Source: an uncultured Pelagibacteraceae bacterium (GTDB lineage Bacteria > Pseudomonadota > Alphaproteobacteria > Pelagibacterales > Pelagibacteraceae). Taken from it: DNA of 64,000 bases. Of the stretch, positions 7,559 to 60,541 are shown in pieces. Within the stretch, counting starts at the first letter, position 1. Each line of letters opens with the position of its first letter. The notes below the pieces were generated by a model. It had not been told where the DNA came from and did not search any database. It saw only the letters and a list, made by a program, of their open reading frames with translations. The position numbers and the translations under genes were made by a program. Location of the stretch: contig CACAUR010000001.1 in the NCBI GenBank assembly GCA_902535745.1, forward strand, positions 62,001 to 126,000, given 5' to 3'.

Positions 7559-8959
7559 ATGACAGAAAAATTTGACTCGGTAGTAATTGGTGGCGGACCA
7601 GGCGGATATGTTTGCGCTATAAGATTAGCTCAATTAGGTCAAAAAACTGCCTGTATAGAAGCCAGAGGTGCCTTGGGCGGAACCTGTCTAAACATTGGAT
7701 GCATTCCCTCAAAAAGCTTATTAAATTTATCTGAGAATTTTAATAAAGCTAAAAATTTCTCTAAACTTGGAATTGAGACAGGAGATGTAAAACTCAATTT
7801 AGATAAGATGATGAAAAATAAGGATAAAGCAGTTTCAATCCTGACCAAGGGTGTAGAATTTCTTTTCAAAAAAAACAAGGTAACTTACTTAAAAGGTTTT
7901 GGTAGTTTTATTTCTGAGAAGAAAATATCAGTGAAAGGCGAAGATGGTAAAATAAAAGAAATTGAGGCAAAAAACATTATTATTGCAACTGGATCTGAAG
8001 CGATGCCTATGCCTAAAGTTGAATTCGATGAAAAAACGATCGTTTCTTCAACTGGCGCCTTATCTTTAAAAGAAGTTCCGAAAAGTCTAGTTGTTGTTGG
8101 CGGGGGTTACATAGGTTTAGAAATGGGCTCTGTCTGGTCTCGTCTCGGGGCTGAAGTCAATGTAATCGAATTTTTAGATCACATTACACCTGGAATGGAT
8201 AGAGAGATTTCAGAAGAGTTTATGAAAATATTGAAGAAACAAAATATTAAGTTCCACCTAAATAGAAAAGTAACTAGCATCAAAAAAACTAACAGTGGGG
8301 TACAAATTACAACTTCTGATAAGAATGGAGATAAAAAAGATTTTAATTGCGATGTAGCTTTAATATCAATTGGAAGAAAACCATTTACATCCAATTTAAA
8401 TTTGAGTTCTGCAGGAGTAAAATCAGATGAAAAAGGAAGGATTAAAATTGACAAAAAATTTCAAACTTCAGCAAAAAATATTTACGCCATTGGAGATGTA
8501 ATAGATGGGCCAATGTTAGCCCACAAAGCAGAGGAGGAAGGGATTGCGGTTGCAGAAATAATTGCAGGTCAATCTGGTCATGTAAACTACGATTTAATTC
8601 CGGGGGTAATTTACACCACTCCTGAGGTAGCAAGCATAGGTTTAACAGAAGAACAACTAAAAGGAAAAAACAAGTCTTATAAAATTGGAAAGTTTCCTTT
8701 TATGGCTAACTCAAGAGCTAAAGCGATTGATGAGCCTGAAGGTTTCGTCAAAATTTTAGCCGATAAAGACACTGATAAAGTTTTAGGAGTACATATGATA
8801 GGGCCTCACGTAGGAGAAATGATTGCAGAAATGGCAGTTGCAATGGAGTTTGGAGCAAGTTCTGAAGATATCGCACGAACGTGTCATGCTCATCCAACAT
8901 TTTCTGAGGCAATAAAAGAGGCAGCTTTATCTGTTGAAAAAAGACAAATACACTCTTGA
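7559..8959 (+). CDS. lpdA: Dihydrolipoyl dehydrogenase (E3)
   Basis: This flavoprotein reoxidises dihydrolipoamide with NAD for the 2-oxoglutarate complex. The 466-residue protein shows the N-terminal FAD motif GGGPGGYVCA, the redox disulfide GGTCLNIGCIPSK (Cys43 and Cys48), the NAD-binding VVGGGYIGLEMGS, the second FAD motif IYAIGDV, and the C-terminal HAHPTFSE with catalytic His445-Glu450. It ends the TCA run; no clear terminator hairpin follows. It is the only E3 in the window, so it may be shared with other complexes. Confidence 0.97.
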   Translation: MTEKFDSVVIGGGPGGYVCAIRLAQLGQKTACIEARGALGGTCLNIGCIPSKSLLNLSENFNKAKNFSKLGIETGDVKLNLDKMMKNKDKAVSILTKGVEFLFKKNKVTYLKGFGSFISEKKISVKGEDGKIKEIEAKNIIIATGSEAMPMPKVEFDEKTIVSSTGALSLKEVPKSLVVVGGGYIGLEMGSVWSRLGAEVNVIEFLDHITPGMDREISEEFMKILKKQNIKFHLNRKVTSIKKTNSGVQITTSDKNGDKKDFNCDVALISIGRKPFTSNLNLSSAGVKSDEKGRIKIDKKFQTSAKNIYAIGDVIDGPMLAHKAEEEGIAVAEIIAGQSGHVNYDLIPGVIYTTPEVASIGLTEEQLKGKNKSYKIGKFPFMANSRAKAIDEPEGFVKILADKDTDKVLGVHMIGPHVGEMIAEMAVAMEFGASSEDIARTCHAHPTFSEAIKEAALSVEKRQIHS

Positions 8960-9014
8960 AAATCACAAATAACCTTATGTCAAAACGCGCTCTTATTAAT
9001 TTAAAATAAAACCA

Positions 9015-9020
9015 TAAGAT
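9015..9020 (+). promoter_or_regulatory. Candidate -10 box of a leaderless or near-leaderless start for the cassette
   Basis: TAAGAT ends 7 bases before the ATG at 9028, which would place transcription start at or next to the start codon. The -35 region is AT-rich without a good TTGACA match, and there is no ribosome-binding site. If correct, the cassette has its own promoter separate from lpdA. Confidence 0.35.
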
Positions 9021-9027
9021 ACTTCTA

Positions 9028-10026
9028 ATGACAAAGTCTTATAATAAATTTAAGTCTAAAATATCTGATGCTACCGATATCAGTAAACCATGGGACAAGG
9101 ACAATCAAGCTTGGTGGGACTGGTATGTTAGCTTAGCAGAAAATGATTTTAAAAAAGATGAAATTATTAACGTCGATCCCTTACCAGATATTTCAATACC
9201 AACTGATGATGAGATTATTTCAGAATTAGCTGAACCCTACCATTTGTTTGATGATCAAATTGATTTTTTTAAAAAAAATGGTTTCATAAAACTTAAAAAG
9301 GTTTTCTCCCCGGGGTCAGTGTTAAAACTACGAGCTGAATTAATTAATTTATTAAAAGAAGAGTTTAAAGTTGATCCAGATAAAGGGGCACATAACCGCT
9401 TCCTTAGTCTTGAAATGATTTGGCCTGATAATAAATTGCTTCGCGCCTATGTATTATCACCTCGTCTAGGACAAATTTCAGCAAATCTTCTCAAAGTATC
9501 AGCTGTTAGACTTTACCACGACAATGTGCTAGCCAAACAAGCTGGTTGTGGTCGTACTCCTTGGCACTTCGACGACCATCATTTTCCTCTCGACACTAAT
9601 GACGTGGTCACCGCTTGGGTGCCTGCACAACCAACTCCTCTTGAAATGGGACCACTTTCTTTTGCCTATCCACTCAGTGTTCACAAATTAGTCAATGCTG
9701 TTACCTTTGAAAAAACTGGCACCAGATACGATCGAGGGATATCAGATATTTTTTCAAAAAATAATGTAAGCGTGAATGAAACTCCTTTTGAACTAGGCGA
9801 AGTTAGCTTTCATCATAATTTAAATTTTCATACTGCTTCAAGTAACCGTACCAATCGTAGCCGAGTAGCTCTTGCCAATACTTATTACCGAGATGGAGCA
9901 AGAGTAATTAATAGTCCCACGATGGTATCTGGTGACTGGCAGAAATTTATGCCCAATGTCAAACCAGGAGATGTAGCAGCCAGTCCACTAAACCCAATTT
10001 GTTGGCCAGTTAAAGATAAATCATGA
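9028..10026 (+). CDS. PhyH-family Fe(II)/2-oxoglutarate dioxygenase, substrate unknown
   Basis: The 332-residue protein has the jelly-roll pattern of the phytanoyl-CoA dioxygenase (PhyH) family. A start helix FKKNGFIKLKKVF lies at about 81-93. The metal motif is WHFDDHHF (His180, Asp182). A distal His268 lies in NFHTASSN, with an arginine (Arg277 or Arg279 in NRSRVALAN) placed to bind 2-oxoglutarate. All ligands look intact. Homologues hydroxylate, halogenate or demethylate small metabolites, so the substrate cannot be read from this sequence. The gene overlaps the next methyltransferase by 4 bases (ATGA). Base composition differs from its neighbours: line 9541-9600 has 30 G+C in 60 bases, and arginine is often CGT or CGC. 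No Shine-Dalgarno sequence precedes the ATG. Confidence 0.85.
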   Translation: MTKSYNKFKSKISDATDISKPWDKDNQAWWDWYVSLAENDFKKDEIINVDPLPDISIPTDDEIISELAEPYHLFDDQIDFFKKNGFIKLKKVFSPGSVLKLRAELINLLKEEFKVDPDKGAHNRFLSLEMIWPDNKLLRAYVLSPRLGQISANLLKVSAVRLYHDNVLAKQAGCGRTPWHFDDHHFPLDTNDVVTAWVPAQPTPLEMGPLSFAYPLSVHKLVNAVTFEKTGTRYDRGISDIFSKNNVSVNETPFELGEVSFHHNLNFHTASSNRTNRSRVALANTYYRDGARVINSPTMVSGDWQKFMPNVKPGDVAASPLNPICWPVKDKS

Positions 10027-10943
10027 AAGATATAAATAATCAGAGGGGACTAAATTCGATTTGGACTGACAGTCTAGCTCGCGATCTACATCCCGATAGT
10101 TCTGCTTTAGTTGATCATTTAAGAACTATTCATCAAGAGCATACAGGATTTACTGAAGTGTGTGCAAGTTTTTGTCGCGATAAAACTGGACGTAATAGTT
10201 ATGAATGGCTAGCTGAACTTGTACCTAATAATGAAAGTTTACGAGTATTAGATCTTGCCTGTGGGTCAGGGCCATTATTAAAAATCTTATTTGATAGAAA
10301 TAAAAATTTAAATTTAATAGGTGTAGACATGTGTCCTGAAGAATTAGCATTAGCCAAGACTCGTCTTGTAAAAAGAGGAGTCAATCTTATTGAGTCAAAA
10401 GCACAAAAATTGACAACAATCAAAGATAATTCTATCGACATTGTCTTGTGTCATTGGGCTTTAACATTGATGGACCCGATATTACCTGTGTTAGAAGAGG
10501 TCAGACGAGTTTTAACTTCAGAAGGTCGGTTTGTAGCACTAGTTGATGGTCCAATGAGTGCAGCACCTAATTACAAGGAGGTACACGATTTGATTTATAG
10601 TTATGTACAAGAAGAAATACCTAATTATGGACAGATTGATTTAGGCGATCCAAGAATACGAGGATCAGAAAGCTTAAGTAATCTTATACATAAAGCTTAC
10701 CCAGAAGCAAATGTAAATATCGAAACAAATGTTGTATCTATGGAGGGACCTGCTACTCATGTGGCTGAAATTGCAGCAGGATTTTTCTATGCAGCGTTTG
10801 TCCTAAAGCCAGAGAGAAGAAAACTAATGATAACAAGTTTATCTGAACTTTTAGCAATATCGAAACAAAGTTCTGACTCTCAAAGAAAAGGCCGATTTTC
10901 AATGCCGATTAACCGTCTTTTAGTTGCCCCTAAAATAAAATGA
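10023..10943 (+). CDS. Class I SAM-dependent methyltransferase
   Basis: The 306-residue protein carries a standard class I methyltransferase core: motif I VLDLACGSG (75-83), acidic end of strand two in GVDMCPEEL (about 100-108), motif IV region IDIVLCHWALTLMD, and EEVRRVLTSEGRFVALVDG. The fold is clear but the methyl acceptor is not. An N-terminal extension of about 70 residues and a helical C-terminus may form the substrate lid. It overlaps the dioxygenase stop and the EgtD-like start by 4 bases each, so the three genes are almost certainly one translated unit. The 5' half uses CGC and CGT arginine codons that are rare elsewhere in the window, suggesting transfer together with the dioxygenase. 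Confidence 0.85.
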   Translation: MKDINNQRGLNSIWTDSLARDLHPDSSALVDHLRTIHQEHTGFTEVCASFCRDKTGRNSYEWLAELVPNNESLRVLDLACGSGPLLKILFDRNKNLNLIGVDMCPEELALAKTRLVKRGVNLIESKAQKLTTIKDNSIDIVLCHWALTLMDPILPVLEEVRRVLTSEGRFVALVDGPMSAAPNYKEVHDLIYSYVQEEIPNYGQIDLGDPRIRGSESLSNLIHKAYPEANVNIETNVVSMEGPATHVAEIAAGFFYAAFVLKPERRKLMITSLSELLAISKQSSDSQRKGRFSMPINRLLVAPKIK

Positions 10944-11863
10944 AATCATTTTTACAAGAAGTAAGTTTCGGTTTAAGTAAGAAAAATAAGAAGCTAAGCT
11001 CTAAATGGTTTTATGATTTTAAGGGATCAAAACTTTTTGAACAAATTACTAAATTGAAAGAATATTACCCGGCACGAACAGAAAGAAAAATTTTAAAAGA
11101 TAATAAAATTGAAATTGCTAATAAAATAGGCAAAGGTGCAGTTTTAATTGAACCAGGCGCCGGAGATATCAAAAAAATAGAAATTTTTTTAAGTAGCCTA
11201 GATAAGCCAAAAAAGTACATACCCCTAGATATTTCTGAAGATTATATAATAAAAATATCACAAAGTTTTAAAAAGAAATTTCCGAAATTAGCTATTACTC
11301 CCAAAGGATATGATTTCTCAGGAAGTGATAAACTTCCCTTTAAAATTAATTCATCAGAAAACATAATTATTTTTTTTCCAGGGTCAACTATAGGTAACTT
11401 TGAGAAAAAGGATGCTGTAAAATTTTTAAAAATGCTCAAAATGAAATTTAAAGCCAAAAAAATTATCATTGGTGCCGACTTAATTAAAGATATTCCAACA
11501 CTTATTTCTGCCTACAATGACAAAAAAGGCGTAACTGCAAAATTTAACAAAAATATTTTACAAAGAATGAATACCGAATTAGGTAGTAATATAAACCTAA
11601 ATTTCTATAAACATTTAGCAATTTATAATAAATCAAAAAAAAGAATTGAGATGAGACTAAGAGCAAAAAAAAATAATAATATTAGTATCAATGGATCAAA
11701 ATATTCAATTAAAAAAAATGAAGAGATTCACACTGAGAATTCTCATAAATATACGATCAAATCTTTCGGAAACTTGGCAAATGAAGCTGGGTGGAAAGTT
11801 AAGAAAACTTGGGTTGATGACAAAAAACTTTTTAGTGTTCATTTTCTTGATCTTGATCTTTAG
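10940..11863 (+). CDS. EgtD-like histidine N-alpha-methyltransferase
   Basis: This is a member of the EgtD (histidine-specific methyltransferase) family, which makes the trimethylated histidine betaine hercynine from histidine and SAM. In 307 residues it has the family's SAM motif EPGAG (71-75), PGSTIGNF (147-154, with Asn153 fitting the residue that holds the substrate amino group), IGADL, AYND (191-194), IEMRL (236-240), and HTENSHKYT (264-272), whose Glu266 and Ser268 fit the imidazole-binding pair. Those conserved positions argue for a histidine-like substrate. No EgtB or OvoA sulfoxide synthase is adjacent, so this is not an ordinary ergothioneine or ovothiol operon. Codon use is AT-rich like the host (14 G+C in line 11641-11700). 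Confidence 0.82.
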   Translation: MKSFLQEVSFGLSKKNKKLSSKWFYDFKGSKLFEQITKLKEYYPARTERKILKDNKIEIANKIGKGAVLIEPGAGDIKKIEIFLSSLDKPKKYIPLDISEDYIIKISQSFKKKFPKLAITPKGYDFSGSDKLPFKINSSENIIIFFPGSTIGNFEKKDAVKFLKMLKMKFKAKKIIIGADLIKDIPTLISAYNDKKGVTAKFNKNILQRMNTELGSNINLNFYKHLAIYNKSKKRIEMRLRAKKNNNISINGSKYSIKKNEEIHTENSHKYTIKSFGNLANEAGWKVKKTWVDDKKLFSVHFLDLDL

Positions 11864-11952
11864 GTCTAGCTATTACTTTACTTATATTGTATATCAACAG
11901 AAGTAGAGTTGTAAATAAATTACCAATACACTTTTAAATTTTTCATAATAAG

Positions 11953-13908
11953 ATGAAAGTACCTGTATTACTACCAAACATTTTTGATCACCCATTTACA
12001 TACAAATCAAAAGAAAAACTTAAAATTGGTGATTATGTGGAAGTGCCTTTTGGTAAAAAAAAGATGGTAGGCATCATATGGGATAATTTTGAGAAAGATT
12101 CCAAAAAAAAATTTAAAATCAAAGATATTATTAAAAAATTTACAAAAGATCCTTTAGAAAATAAAACAATAAATTTTTTAAACTGGTTTTCGGATTATAA
12201 TATTGTCCCCAAGGGCATGGTGTTAAAACTTCATCTTGTAAATAATTCTATAGAAGAAGATTATAAAGCAGACACTTACGATCAGTTTAATGAAAAATAT
12301 CCAACTAAAGACTATAGCCTCAATACTCAGCAAAAAAAAAGTTTATCAGAAATAGAAAAGAGGGATAAAAATTTTAGAGTTCATGTATTACAAGGGACCA
12401 CAGGTTCGGGAAAAACAATAGTTTATTTTAATGCAATTAAAAAAAAACTAAACGAAGGTTATCAATCTTTAATTTTACTTCCTGAAATTGGCCTTACTAA
12501 AGAATTTGAAAAAAATTTCATATCTTTTTTCGGTTTTAAACCAGCTGTTTGGCATTCATCAGTTTCAAAAAAAAATAAAAAGATAATTTGGAGCGGTTTG
12601 AAATCAGGAAAGATTAAAGTTGTCATAGGAGCGAGGTCTGCTTTATTTTTACCTTTTAAAAAGTTAGGCCTTATTACAATAGATGAGGAACACGACCAAT
12701 CTTATAAACAAGATGAAGGTGTAAACTATCATGCTAGAGATATGGCAATATCCAGAGCATCATTTGAGAATATACCTATCAACCTGATATCTGCTGTTCC
12801 ATCTATAGAAACCTATAAAAATATTAAAGGAAAAAAGTTTCATTCATCTAGGTTAACTGAGCGATTTAGAGACGCAAAATTGCCAGATTATGAAATTATA
12901 AAAATAAAAAAAGGTGAAAAAAAAGGAACATTTATTTCAGAGGAATTGATTGAAAAAGTAAAAGATAATTTATCTAGGAATAATCAGGTTTTATTTTTTG
13001 TAAATAGAAGAGGTTACTCACCCTTTGTACTGTGCAAAAATTGTTTGAAAACTTTTGACTGTCCTTTTTGCTCAATCAATCTAGTTTATCATAAAATAAG
13101 AAATAAAGTTTTATGTCATTATTGTGGTTACTCCACAGAGATGGAACGAGACTGCTCTTCAAAGGACTCTAAATGTGATTTTAGCTTTAGTGGTCCAGGT
13201 GTGGAAAAAATACTTGAAGAAATTAAAAATATTTTTCCTGACAAAAACACTTTAATTTTCTCAAGTGATACCATGAATAAAAAGGACTCATCTTCTAAAA
13301 TCCAAGAGATAATAGATAATAAGATTAACATTTTAATTGGCACTCAATTGATTTCAAAAGGGTTTCATTTTCCTAACCTGAACTGTATTATTGTATTGGA
13401 TATTGACTATTCCTCTAGGGGTTACGATTTAAGAAGTGCTGAAAAAACTGTACAGCTTTACCACCAACTATCAGGCAGAGCTGGACGAGAAGGGAAGCCT
13501 TCAACTGTTTATTTTCAAACAATGAATTTTAACTCAGATTACATATCGCAAATCGTAAATCCTGATCCTTATATTTTTTTGGATAACGAATTAATTCTGA
13601 GAGAAAAGAATTTATTGCCTCCTTTTGAAAGATTTATATCAATAATAGTTAGTGCTCAAAATAGTAAAAAATCTGACCAAGCATCACTTGAATTGTCAGA
13701 ATTTTTAAAAAAAAACCTTAAAGTCAAGATTCTTGGACCAGTAAATGCTCCAATTTATAAAGTACGAGGAAATTACAGGAATAGGATTTTATTAAGATCT
13801 GCAAAGAATATTTCGGCTCAGAAAAACTTAAAAATGGCTCTTAAAAGATTTAATATCCCAAAAGGAATAAAACTTTCAGTTGATGTTGATCCAATAAATT
13901 TCAATTAA
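11953..13908 (+). CDS. priA: Primosomal replication protein N' (PriA helicase)
   Basis: PriA restarts stalled replication forks by unwinding DNA and loading the primosome. The 651 residues include an N-terminal 3'-DNA-binding domain, helicase motif I GTTGSGKT (148-155), motif II DEEH, a paired zinc-binding insertion with CKNC, CPFC, CHYC and a final Cys pair (roughly 363-415), and a C-terminal helicase domain with GTQLISKGFHFPN and QLSGRAGREGK. The DEEH box and zinc module separate it from RecG-type helicases. It is somewhat shorter than the E. coli protein (732 residues). Confidence 0.95.
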   Translation: MKVPVLLPNIFDHPFTYKSKEKLKIGDYVEVPFGKKKMVGIIWDNFEKDSKKKFKIKDIIKKFTKDPLENKTINFLNWFSDYNIVPKGMVLKLHLVNNSIEEDYKADTYDQFNEKYPTKDYSLNTQQKKSLSEIEKRDKNFRVHVLQGTTGSGKTIVYFNAIKKKLNEGYQSLILLPEIGLTKEFEKNFISFFGFKPAVWHSSVSKKNKKIIWSGLKSGKIKVVIGARSALFLPFKKLGLITIDEEHDQSYKQDEGVNYHARDMAISRASFENIPINLISAVPSIETYKNIKGKKFHSSRLTERFRDAKLPDYEIIKIKKGEKKGTFISEELIEKVKDNLSRNNQVLFFVNRRGYSPFVLCKNCLKTFDCPFCSINLVYHKIRNKVLCHYCGYSTEMERDCSSKDSKCDFSFSGPGVEKILEEIKNIFPDKNTLIFSSDTMNKKDSSSKIQEIIDNKINILIGTQLISKGFHFPNLNCIIVLDIDYSSRGYDLRSAEKTVQLYHQLSGRAGREGKPSTVYFQTMNFNSDYISQIVNPDPYIFLDNELILREKNLLPPFERFISIIVSAQNSKKSDQASLELSEFLKKNLKVKILGPVNAPIYKVRGNYRNRILLRSAKNISAQKNLKMALKRFNIPKGIKLSVDVDPINFN

Positions 13909-58856: not shown

Positions 58857-59720
58857 TTAATTAATGATTTTAATTTTGATTTTATCTCTTACTTTTGAAA
58901 TTCCCTCTTTTACTATCTTATCGCCCACAGACAAACCATCAAGAATAGAAACTTTTCCATAATTTCTTTTTCCAATTTTTACCTCAATTTTCTCAATAGT
59001 ATTATCCTCTAAAACTTTATAAGCAAAAGCCGTATCACCCTGTATCAATAATGAGTTTTCAGGAACTCCTATTTCTTGAGTTTCATTATAAATAATTTGT
59101 ATATCTAAAAGCATTCCTGGGACTAATTCTAAATTTTTGTTGTCCACTGCGATACTTGCAAGAACTGATCTTGTGCTAGGATCTACCCGAGAACTCACAG
59201 AGTCTATCTTACCATAAAATATTTTATCAAAAGCATCTGATCTAACTTCAGCAATAAGACCTGGTTTTAAAATTTTAAGATAAATCTCGGGAACTTTTAT
59301 ATTCATAATGATCGATGAGGTATCATCTAGAGTGAGTATAAAGGACTCAGTTCCTAGAACACCCTGAGCAATTTCTCTTTTTCCCAAAACACCTTTAAAG
59401 GGAGCAATGATAATTTCATTTTTTGTTCTTAATAAAACTTCACCTTCATTAAATACTTTTCCAATAAGAATTTTTTCATCAAGTATTTCACTTTTTTTGA
59501 CTCTAAAATTTTTATTTTTTTTTGATAGAGCAGTTCCAAATGTTTCAATACTGTCAAAAAAATTGGATGATTGAACAACCTCAACAATTACTCCTGGTGG
59601 CGGATATTTAGAAAATTTCTTTTGAAAATGTTTTCCAACAAAGTGCCTTGCCACTATCACTGAAGCAATGACAATTGCCAATATTATTAAAAATATGGTA
59701 ATTTTTTTTGAAGTTTTCAT
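58857..59720 (-). CDS. RND membrane fusion protein (HlyD/AcrA type)
   Basis: The 287-residue protein has an N-terminal membrane helix (about 7-24) and AcrA-like lipoyl/barrel-sandwich and beta-barrel parts, e.g. VIVEVVQSSNFFDSIETFGTAL, NEIIIAPFKGVLGKREIAQGVLG, RVDPSTRSVLASIAVDNKN and LVPGMLLDIQIIY. It is short for the family because the alpha-helical hairpin is almost absent, as in MexH-like minimal adaptors. It lies 3 bases upstream of the RND pump and overlaps sseA by 4 bases. Confidence 0.87.
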   Translation of the reverse strand: MKTSKKITIFLIILAIVIASVIVARHFVGKHFQKKFSKYPPPGVIVEVVQSSNFFDSIETFGTALSKKNKNFRVKKSEILDEKILIGKVFNEGEVLLRTKNEIIIAPFKGVLGKREIAQGVLGTESFILTLDDTSSIIMNIKVPEIYLKILKPGLIAEVRSDAFDKIFYGKIDSVSSRVDPSTRSVLASIAVDNKNLELVPGMLLDIQIIYNETQEIGVPENSLLIQGDTAFAYKVLEDNTIEKIEVKIGKRNYGKVSILDGLSVGDKIVKEGISKVRDKIKIKIIN

Positions 59721-60541
59721 GCTGGATATTTACCATATTCACTCCAAGAACCATCATAAATTTTTGGAATATAATCGTTATTTACCATTTTATAGGCATA
59801 AGCTAGGACTGCGGCGGTAACACCAGATCCGCAAGTAAAAACTTGATCTAATTCTTTTTCTATATTTTCATTTTGATTAAAAAGTTCTCTTAATTCTTCC
59901 AGATTTTTGAACTCCCCAGTTTTTTGATTTATACATAGATTAAAAGGTAAACAAAAAGAGTTTTGAATATGTCCACTTCTTAAACCTTTCCTCGGCTCAG
60001 ATACTTTTCCTTCAAATCTTTCAAAGCTTCTTGCATCAATAACGTTAAAACTCTTACTTAAAATGTTCTTTTTGATTTGATCAAAGCTTACTACTAAATT
60101 TTCTTTTTCATTTGCAACATAATTACTTTCAATAATTTCTGTCGCATCTTTGGTTATAGGTTTATTTTCAAAAATCCATTTTTTTAATCCACCATTTAAA
60201 ATGTGTATTTTTTTTTCATCATGACCAAAATATATAAGACTAAACCAACACCTACATGAACTTTTTAAATCGGAGTTGTCATATATGAGAATATCATCAT
60301 TATTATTTATTCCTAAAGAGGACATTATTTTTTCCCAAGCCTCTTGTTTTGGAAGCATATGTGGAAGGTCTGTGTCTTTTTCAGAGTTTTTATCTAAATC
60401 AAAAAAAACAGAATTTGGGATGTGAGCATTAAGATATTCCTCAGCGGGATTTCTTTTTTGAGCAGGCATATGCCAAGAGGCGTCTATTATTTTGAGACTA
60501 TTTAAATTTGCGAGAACCCAATCTGTTGTGACTAAACTCAT
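59717..60541 (-). CDS. sseA: 3-mercaptopyruvate sulfurtransferase
   Basis: The 274-residue protein has two rhodanese domains; the second carries the active cysteine loop CGSGVTA, which fits the CGSGVT type of mercaptopyruvate sulfurtransferases rather than the CRKGVT type of thiosulfate sulfurtransferases. SWHMPAQKRNPAEEYLNAHIPNSVFFDLDK and HILNGGLKKW are also typical. It moves sulfur from 3-mercaptopyruvate to an acceptor. It lies directly after msrA. Confidence 0.9.
   Translation of the reverse strand: MSLVTTDWVLANLNSLKIIDASWHMPAQKRNPAEEYLNAHIPNSVFFDLDKNSEKDTDLPHMLPKQEAWEKIMSSLGINNNDDILIYDNSDLKSSCRCWFSLIYFGHDEKKIHILNGGLKKWIFENKPITKDATEIIESNYVANEKENLVVSFDQIKKNILSKSFNVIDARSFERFEGKVSEPRKGLRSGHIQNSFCLPFNLCINQKTGEFKNLEELRELFNQNENIEKELDQVFTCGSGVTAAVLAYAYKMVNNDYIPKIYDGSWSEYGKYPA

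Follow-up and report, generated by a model that had tools for sequence, protein, structure and literature searches.

We analysed a stretch of 64,000 nucleotides from a SAR11 genome (hereafter the window), in which three plus-strand genes with overlapping ends occupy positions 9028-11863, between lpd and priA. The first (9028-10026, 332 amino acids, PF05721) encodes a PhyH-type Fe(II)/2-oxoglutarate oxygenase, called PhyH here; the second (10023-10943, 306 amino acids, PF08241) encodes a class I S-adenosylmethionine (SAM)-dependent methyltransferase, called MT; and the third (10940-11863, 307 amino acids, TIGR03438) is predicted to encode EgtD, the L-histidine N-alpha-trimethyltransferase that makes hercynine. 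An earlier note on this DNA had described a PhyH dioxygenase, a class I methyltransferase and an EgtD-like enzyme joined by ATGA junctions at 10023-10026 and 10940-10943. The open reading frames matched these coordinates and junctions exactly, and Pfam and NCBIfam profiles agreed with all three assignments. The source genome (G000) comprises 919,735 bases and is 81% complete.

Identity of the three cassette proteins

The window EgtD scored 348.9 bits against the TIGR03438 equivalog of NCBIfam (cut-off 290.9) and 326.8 bits against PF10017 (Methyltransf_33, cut-off 23), and its closest solved relatives were EgtD entries (E 1.7e-43). All eight of the histidine-pocket positions that we checked were kept (Y25, Y42, G148, N153, Y192, M238, E266 and S268). 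The numbering fits Gly161 and Asn166 of EgtD in PMC9103826. From these sequence features we strongly infer that the protein would trimethylate L-histidine to hercynine. At another locus (L106:8491-8637), a 49-residue piece that is 88% identical to the window EgtD lies about 1.9 kb after a complete cassette EgtD, and is perhaps the remnant of a duplication.

PhyH scored 53.1 bits against its Pfam family, PF05721 (cut-off 22), and its residues H180, D182, H268 and R279 were invariant in 16 aligned homologues; from knowledge of the family, we take the first three to be the iron ligands and R279 to be the 2-oxoglutarate arginine. The tryptophan-rich N-terminus of the protein (WDxxNQAWWDWYV) is specific to its subfamily and was missing in three aligned relatives at 29-37% identity. 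Profile matches to solved structures included SnoK (E 9.7e-16) and MysH (E 0.0012), and the AlphaFold2 model, with a predicted local distance difference test score (pLDDT) of 48.4, was not reliable enough to be compared with known folds. Methylphosphonate hydroxylase (NF052437), the sole NCBIfam match of PhyH, was rejected as its identity at 14.6 bits versus a cut-off of 500.

MT is a member of the class I SAM methyltransferases by its profile score (63.8 bits against PF08241, Methyltransf_11, cut-off 21.2), by a SAM motif whose residues D77, A79, C80, G81, S82, G83 and P84 were invariant in 15 homologues, and by the Rossmann-like fold of its AlphaFold2 model (pLDDT 86.6), which matched many class I methyltransferases. 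The best structural matches included the S-methyltransferases TmtA (Z 21.6) and GtmA (Z 21.4), with OxaG at Z 21.3. An identity as UbiE/MenG or another named methyltransferase was rejected, with the best model, TIGR01934, matched at 55.3 bits versus a cut-off of 158.35, and MT was below the curated cut-off in every NCBIfam match listed (25 of 46 families).

In four pairwise comparisons, the ratio of nonsynonymous to synonymous substitution rates (dN/dS) ranged from about 0.04 to 0.33 across PhyH, MT and EgtD, and dN was well below dS for each gene, indicating that all three are under purifying selection. In its best-matching segment, the window PhyH shared 98% identity with the PhyH of Pelagibacteraceae genome AG-325-B10. 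GC content was 37.8% in PhyH, 35.9% in MT and 26.6% in EgtD, a drop toward EgtD that may mean that the components of the cassette have had separate histories. An Rfam search of positions 8700-12100 gave no match up to E 1, and neither a promoter scan (16 versus 12.1 +/- 4.1 in shuffles) nor a terminator scan (1 versus 2.1) gave anything clearly above shuffled sequence. The insertion site is bounded on the left by lpd (7559-8959, plus strand) and on the right by priA (11953-13908, plus strand), which was named by eye from similarity to known proteins and is followed by ATP synthase genes.

Distribution, settings and movement of the PhyH-MT pair

In a sample of 247 Pelagibacterales genomes, an orthologous PhyH (82-100% identity) was found in 15; fourteen weaker matches (21-27% identity) were treated as paralogues and excluded from the counts. 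An EgtD-family protein was present in 34 genomes of this sample, comprising all 15 with PhyH versus 19 of the 232 without it (Fisher p = 4.8e-15, each genome being counted as independent). EgtB followed the opposite pattern among the EgtD-positive genomes, being present in 18 of the 19 without PhyH versus four of the 15 with PhyH (p = 4.8e-5, counted in the same way).

The earlier note had also stated that EgtB and OvoA are absent here. In the sequenced part of the window genome, 81% of the whole, we found no match to EgtB (TIGR03440) or to the FGE domain (PF03781), which OvoA and SenA presumably both carry; the PF03781 search did match in four EgtB-positive control genomes. EgtB was also not over its cut-off in 10 further PhyH-positive genomes of the sample (11 of the 15 with the window genome included), and TIGR03440 and PF03781 were both without a match in nine of these ten. 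The tenth, G158, which is a single contig of the same family rated 100% complete, had EgtB below the cut-off: a lone 265-residue FGE-sulfatase-domain frame (G158:C1:15017-15625) matched EgtB over 150 of 413 positions, too short for EgtB.

A scan of 84,980 genomes (genome_contigs) returned 154 related loci, the best 80 of which were analysed, with 74 left outside the analysis. Of these 80 loci, 72 belong to SAR11 and eight do not; their neighbouring genes were identified by a Pfam check on one example locus per setting and by similarity clustering at the others. PhyH and MT were adjacent in all 80, with a one-gene-length gap between them in five. EgtD directly followed MT in 47 of the 72 SAR11 loci, and the overlapping junctions recurred as well, that of PhyH and MT in 44 of the 72 and that of MT and EgtD in 43 of the 47. 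The earlier note had proposed a search for the same three genes side by side in other genomes, and this arrangement was borne out in 12 of the 14 fetched SAR11 regions with an orthologous PhyH (L031-L044), where all three stood in the same order (in one region the contig stops within EgtD); a chance succession of genes was therefore rejected. In the other two regions (G164 and G234) PhyH and MT were present, and the EgtD-family gene lay at a separate place in the genome.

The pair directly follows lpd, as in the window, in 16 of the 80 loci, and it follows EgtB in 19 of the 72 SAR11 loci, which read egtB-phyH-MT-egtD (some being cut by contig ends). The absence of EgtB, seen in the window genome and in most PhyH-positive genomes of the Pelagibacterales sample, did not extend to these relatives, and the presence of EgtB in the same gene row of close relatives indicates that the pair does more than offer a sulfur-free route in place of ergothioneine. 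In four loci (L067, L069, L073 and L075) the pair follows genes of the MsrB and SodB families, with EgtD not next door; L070, on a cut contig, is of the same type. In 16 of the 80 loci, again with EgtD not next door, the pair follows or lies near a gene judged by eye to be NlpC/P60-like; in four it comes after a citrate synthase gene, and the remaining settings vary.

One of the rows with EgtB (L060:1146-9824) reads gshA-gshB-EamA-MFS-EgtB-PhyH-MT-EgtD, joining glutathione and ergothioneine genes (Pfam: GCS2, glutathione synthetase). At L073:3341-7374, PhyH-MT is preceded by genes for a GYD-domain protein, MsrB and SodB, all checked by Pfam, and by an 85-amino-acid gene without a Pfam match; the genomes of both L069 and L073 carry an EgtB-EgtD pair elsewhere.

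Outside SAR11, EgtD lies upstream on the same strand in two proteobacterial metagenome-assembled genomes (L086 and L105) and in a Burkholderiales single cell (L119), where the order is EgtD-PhyH-MT-EgtB, and it is divergent upstream in Marivita (L118) and in a Rhodobacteraceae metagenome-assembled genome (L120). The loci of Thioalkalivibrio (L121), Rhodosalinus (L123) and Actibacterium (L124) hold no EgtD; for L121 and L124, both EgtD and EgtB are encoded in other parts of the genome. EgtB was over its cut-off in four of the eight non-SAR11 genomes; the EgtBs of L060 and L119 were over the EgtB cut-off and below those of SenA and OvoA. In L086 and L105, the reading frame of MT passes, in the last bases of each contig, into residues that look like sequencing-adapter read-through, so that the cutting of MT in these two loci is ascribed to an assembly artefact.

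The PhyH proteins of the non-SAR11 loci were 68-84% identical to the window PhyH. The EgtDs that stand beside them were only 37-40% identical to the window EgtD, compared with 70-84% for the PhyH of the same loci. In an EgtD tree of 26 representatives of 98 sequences, with 8 of 23 inner branches well supported and with rows outside L045-L124 that are tblastn-matched stretches rather than whole open reading frames, the SAR11 cassette EgtDs formed one group (100/100), and the L086/L119 pair and the Rhodobacterales EgtDs fell outside it, among EgtDs not linked to PhyH. EgtD is thus found in three arrangements (after MT, upstream on the same strand, and divergent upstream) and in distantly related forms, for which the simplest account is that it was linked to PhyH-MT at least three separate times, a number that the tree alone does not force. 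At L074, which occupies the same lpd/priA site, dS relative to the window was saturated in the flanks (2.75 and 2.0), in contrast to 0.55-0.91 in the cassette, which shows that the three genes moved together as a unit.

A search of viral_contigs gave 140 pattern matches, none of them a relative, and a plasmid search gave 23 PhyH and 22 MT records, all below 60% identity, leaving both a phage and a plasmid origin without support. Three plasmid PhyH records that we inspected listed no EgtD in the stretch shown, their gene tables being incomplete. At E 1e-80, there were no matches among 397 genomes of a phylum sample beyond the window's own, and none among 344 other genomes in a sample of the family of the Actibacterium genome (G275), so that the module looks rare outside SAR11, with the proviso that divergent forms may be missed.

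A proposed hercynine-tailoring pathway and its alternatives

On balance, we lean toward a model, built on gene content and sequence, in which PhyH and MT are a laterally moving pair that would tailor EgtD-made hercynine, beside or instead of ergothioneine synthesis. EgtD would convert L-histidine to hercynine by trimethylation, PhyH would then hydroxylate hercynine, most likely on the side chain, and MT would methylate the new hydroxyl or a ring position, yielding a hydroxylated, methylated, sulfur-free histidine betaine. Side-chain hydroxylation followed by O-methylation is the least certain step of this model, with ring N- or C-methylation as the alternative. The pair moves between lineages as a module and has repeatedly been coupled to distinct EgtD genes. 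Some SAR11 carry it beside EgtB in a row of ergothioneine genes; the window's lineage uses it without EgtB, so that hercynine there probably goes only into the PhyH-MT branch. Our data show the identities of the genes, their co-occurrence and co-localisation, and the lateral movement; the substrate, the product and the role are proposals. The earlier note had suggested a hercynine further methylated and hydroxylated, perhaps as an osmolyte, antioxidant or metal ligand; its interpretation is partly supported, by the gene assignments, by the absence of an EgtB match in this genome and by the link between EgtD and the PhyH-MT pair.

Because PhyH and MT are alike with or without EgtB, their substrate should be one that is made in both cases, which points to hercynine, and the gene row shared with EgtB in 19 loci suggests that tailoring takes place beside ergothioneine synthesis. 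The product would most likely be a redox-protective small molecule and, less likely, a compatible solute; the redox role is favoured because the neighbours in relatives, by association only, are genes for glutathione synthesis, EgtB, MsrB and SodB. It is possible, although we would not call it probable, that some SAR11 make a sulfur-free counterpart of ergothioneine, a hercynine hydroxylated by a dedicated PhyH and afterwards methylated, and that the module, spreading laterally among marine bacteria and joining any EgtD at hand, has wholly displaced the EgtB branch in the window's lineage.

Several observations weigh against the hercynine-tailoring model. We know of no activity for this PhyH or this MT, and the MT fold search singles out no substrate class, its matches spanning many substrates. 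In 25 of the 72 SAR11 loci the pair has no EgtD next to it. A search of 35 PhyH-MT genomes, chosen largely for having EgtD away from the pair (two SAR11 loci of this kind, L102 and L122, were left out), found no EgtD in five; among the 30 with a match, some show just a fragment where a contig ends. These five are the SAR11 genomes G247, G251, G262 and G265, of which G251 does hold a piece of EgtB, and the draft genome of Rhodosalinus sediminis strain WDN1C137 (G274), in which neither EgtD nor EgtB was found. G090 has an EgtD-family gene with neither PhyH nor EgtB. Furthermore, the genome counts given above are non-independent, and their p-values ignore shared descent.

Two further points concern the enzymes themselves. 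A second methyltransferase of about 280 amino acids occurs in all eight non-SAR11 PhyH-MT genomes, suggesting that the non-SAR11 pathway may have another step. It adjoins the pair, between PhyH and MT, in five of the eight genomes; it was located at L118:6140-6982, L124:7947-8786, L123:7977-8816 and L121:1749-2585, and it is unlinked in G271, G252 and G261. A profile search at E 0.001 gave no relative of known structure, and the protein was not found in the 247 Pelagibacterales genomes by a search without a built-in positive control; in a separate search, one sequence of this family matched all eight non-SAR11 genomes. Additionally, the unlinked EgtD-like protein of G164 scores 282.2 bits, under the EgtD cut-off of 290.9, and in the EgtD-like proteins of the deep SAR11 clade around G164 Met252 of the pocket is changed to Gly. 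Taken together, these points leave the model standing but allow for a different substrate.

The G164 locus (L251:5912-8911) has a gene row of its own. The Met252Gly EgtD-like gene starts 2 bases after a DmdA/GcvT-like gene, whose best model is dimethylsulfoniopropionate (DMSP) demethylase, below the cut-off, and the locus also holds a 242-amino-acid gene that resembles MTHFR by eye and matches no model of Pfam or NCBIfam. Nearby is a betaine-binding gene of the ProX type, and the row is possibly, to judge from these annotations, a betaine demethylation or methylation operon.

The alternative that survives best, which we nevertheless consider unlikely, is that PhyH-MT uses another substrate and that EgtD co-travels with it because both serve stress protection. 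The five of 35 PhyH-MT genomes without a detected EgtD, Rhodosalinus sediminis among them, are consistent with such co-travel, as are the 25 SAR11 loci in which the pair is unlinked from EgtD and the extra methyltransferase of the eight non-SAR11 genomes. However, it sits poorly with the complete co-occurrence in the order sample (15 of 15) and with the adjacency of the pair, in three arrangements, to distantly related EgtDs.

Somewhat less probable again is that the substrate of PhyH-MT is ergothioneine itself, or one of its later intermediates, made by EgtB, with the EgtB-less lineages importing ergothioneine from seawater. That EgtB lies directly upstream of the pair in 19 SAR11 loci, adjoins MT in L119 and is over the cut-off in half (4/8) of the non-SAR11 genomes would fit such a substrate, as would the S-methyltransferases TmtA and GtmA among the structural matches of MT, although OxaG (Z 21.3) ties with them in the fold list. 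Yet 11 of the 15 PhyH-positive genomes are without EgtB over the cut-off and all keep EgtD, an enzyme under purifying selection where it was compared, which would idle if the substrate were imported. We prefer hercynine to ergothioneine as the substrate because EgtD is kept where EgtB is absent.

That PhyH-MT stands in for EgtB, and leads to ergothioneine by inserting sulfur in a new reaction that depends on oxygen, might be suggested by the nearly exclusive distribution of PhyH and EgtB among EgtD-positive genomes (four of 15 versus 18 of 19), but it is very improbable: PhyH and EgtB occur together in four sample genomes and side by side in 19 loci, ergothioneine needs no more methylation after EgtD, and to our knowledge sulfur insertion is not known for the PhyH family. 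Least credible of all is that the window EgtD methylates an amino acid other than histidine to give a different betaine, for although relatives of EgtD whose pocket is altered take amino acids other than histidine and the G164-clade protein carries the Met252 to Gly change, the window protein keeps all eight checked pocket residues and scores over the equivalog cut-off.

SAR11 are among the most numerous cells of the ocean, and EgtD is generally taken as a marker of ergothioneine. If hercynine tailoring does take place as proposed, EgtD without EgtB would mark a different branch with a new marine metabolite, testable through a defined gene trio, and an orphan oxygenase-methyltransferase pair, here in few lineages, would be tied to thiol and oxidative-stress metabolism.

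Comparison with known systems

In the open-access literature searched, with most subscription papers and all preprints outside its scope, we found no paper describing such a pathway; what came nearest was the account of a Pantoea operon in PMC11585277, treated below. A search of the same literature for ergothioneine and SAR11 found no paper, and one for ergothioneine and Pelagibacter found a single paper, PMC4595634, which names Pelagibacter in its reference list only. The parts of the cassette are known families; their combination, the repeated linkage to EgtD and the use without EgtB look new.

PhyH belongs by profile to the same family as the solved proteins SnoK, SnoN, phytanoyl-CoA dioxygenase and MysH. 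These are nevertheless remote from it, no alignment to any of them reaches its tryptophan-rich N-terminus, and none is known to act on a histidine betaine. The ovothiol (OvoA) and selenoneine (SenA) pathways resemble the proposed one in that their products are histidine-derived redox molecules, and SenA also uses hercynine, but no PF03781 protein was found in the window genome. In the anaerobic route to ergothioneine, as far as described in the excerpts of PMC7278568, the rhodanese-like EanB uses hercynine. The likeness to this route is the use of hercynine and the presence of a rhodanese gene in the window (59717-60541). In a profile comparison limited to this gene, an EanB-type identity was rejected, since its nearest relative was 3-mercaptopyruvate sulfurtransferase (E 3.8e-48) and EanB (6h9a) was only a remote match (E 5.4e-6).

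A marine sponge has yielded a C-methylated hercynine with the methyl group on ring carbon 2, and its methylation is discussed by the authors in terms of radical chemistry (PMC8779493, excerpts). The sponge compound is like the proposed product in being a further methylated hercynine from the sea and differs from it in the position on ring carbon 2; no genes are named in those excerpts. In Pantoea, the repressed genes of a six-gene operon include, in a passage of PMC11585277, a phytanoyl-CoA dioxygenase and an EgtC-type annotation. This operon is similar to the cassette, at the level of annotation, in joining a PhyH-annotated gene to a gene annotated for an ergothioneine step, and that passage mentions neither EgtD nor the tailoring of hercynine. 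Hercynine was detected in nine of 10 cyanobacterial strains in a study that, in its excerpted text, describes betaines as compatible solutes (PMC3826126). A further comparison is with the ergothioneine pathway itself (EgtB/EgtD), which has EgtD in common with the cassette and, in relatives of the window genome, also EgtB in the same gene row, near genes for glutathione synthesis. It differs from the cassette in that the window genome is without an EgtB match and in that the cassette adds to EgtD a PhyH oxygenase and a methyltransferase.

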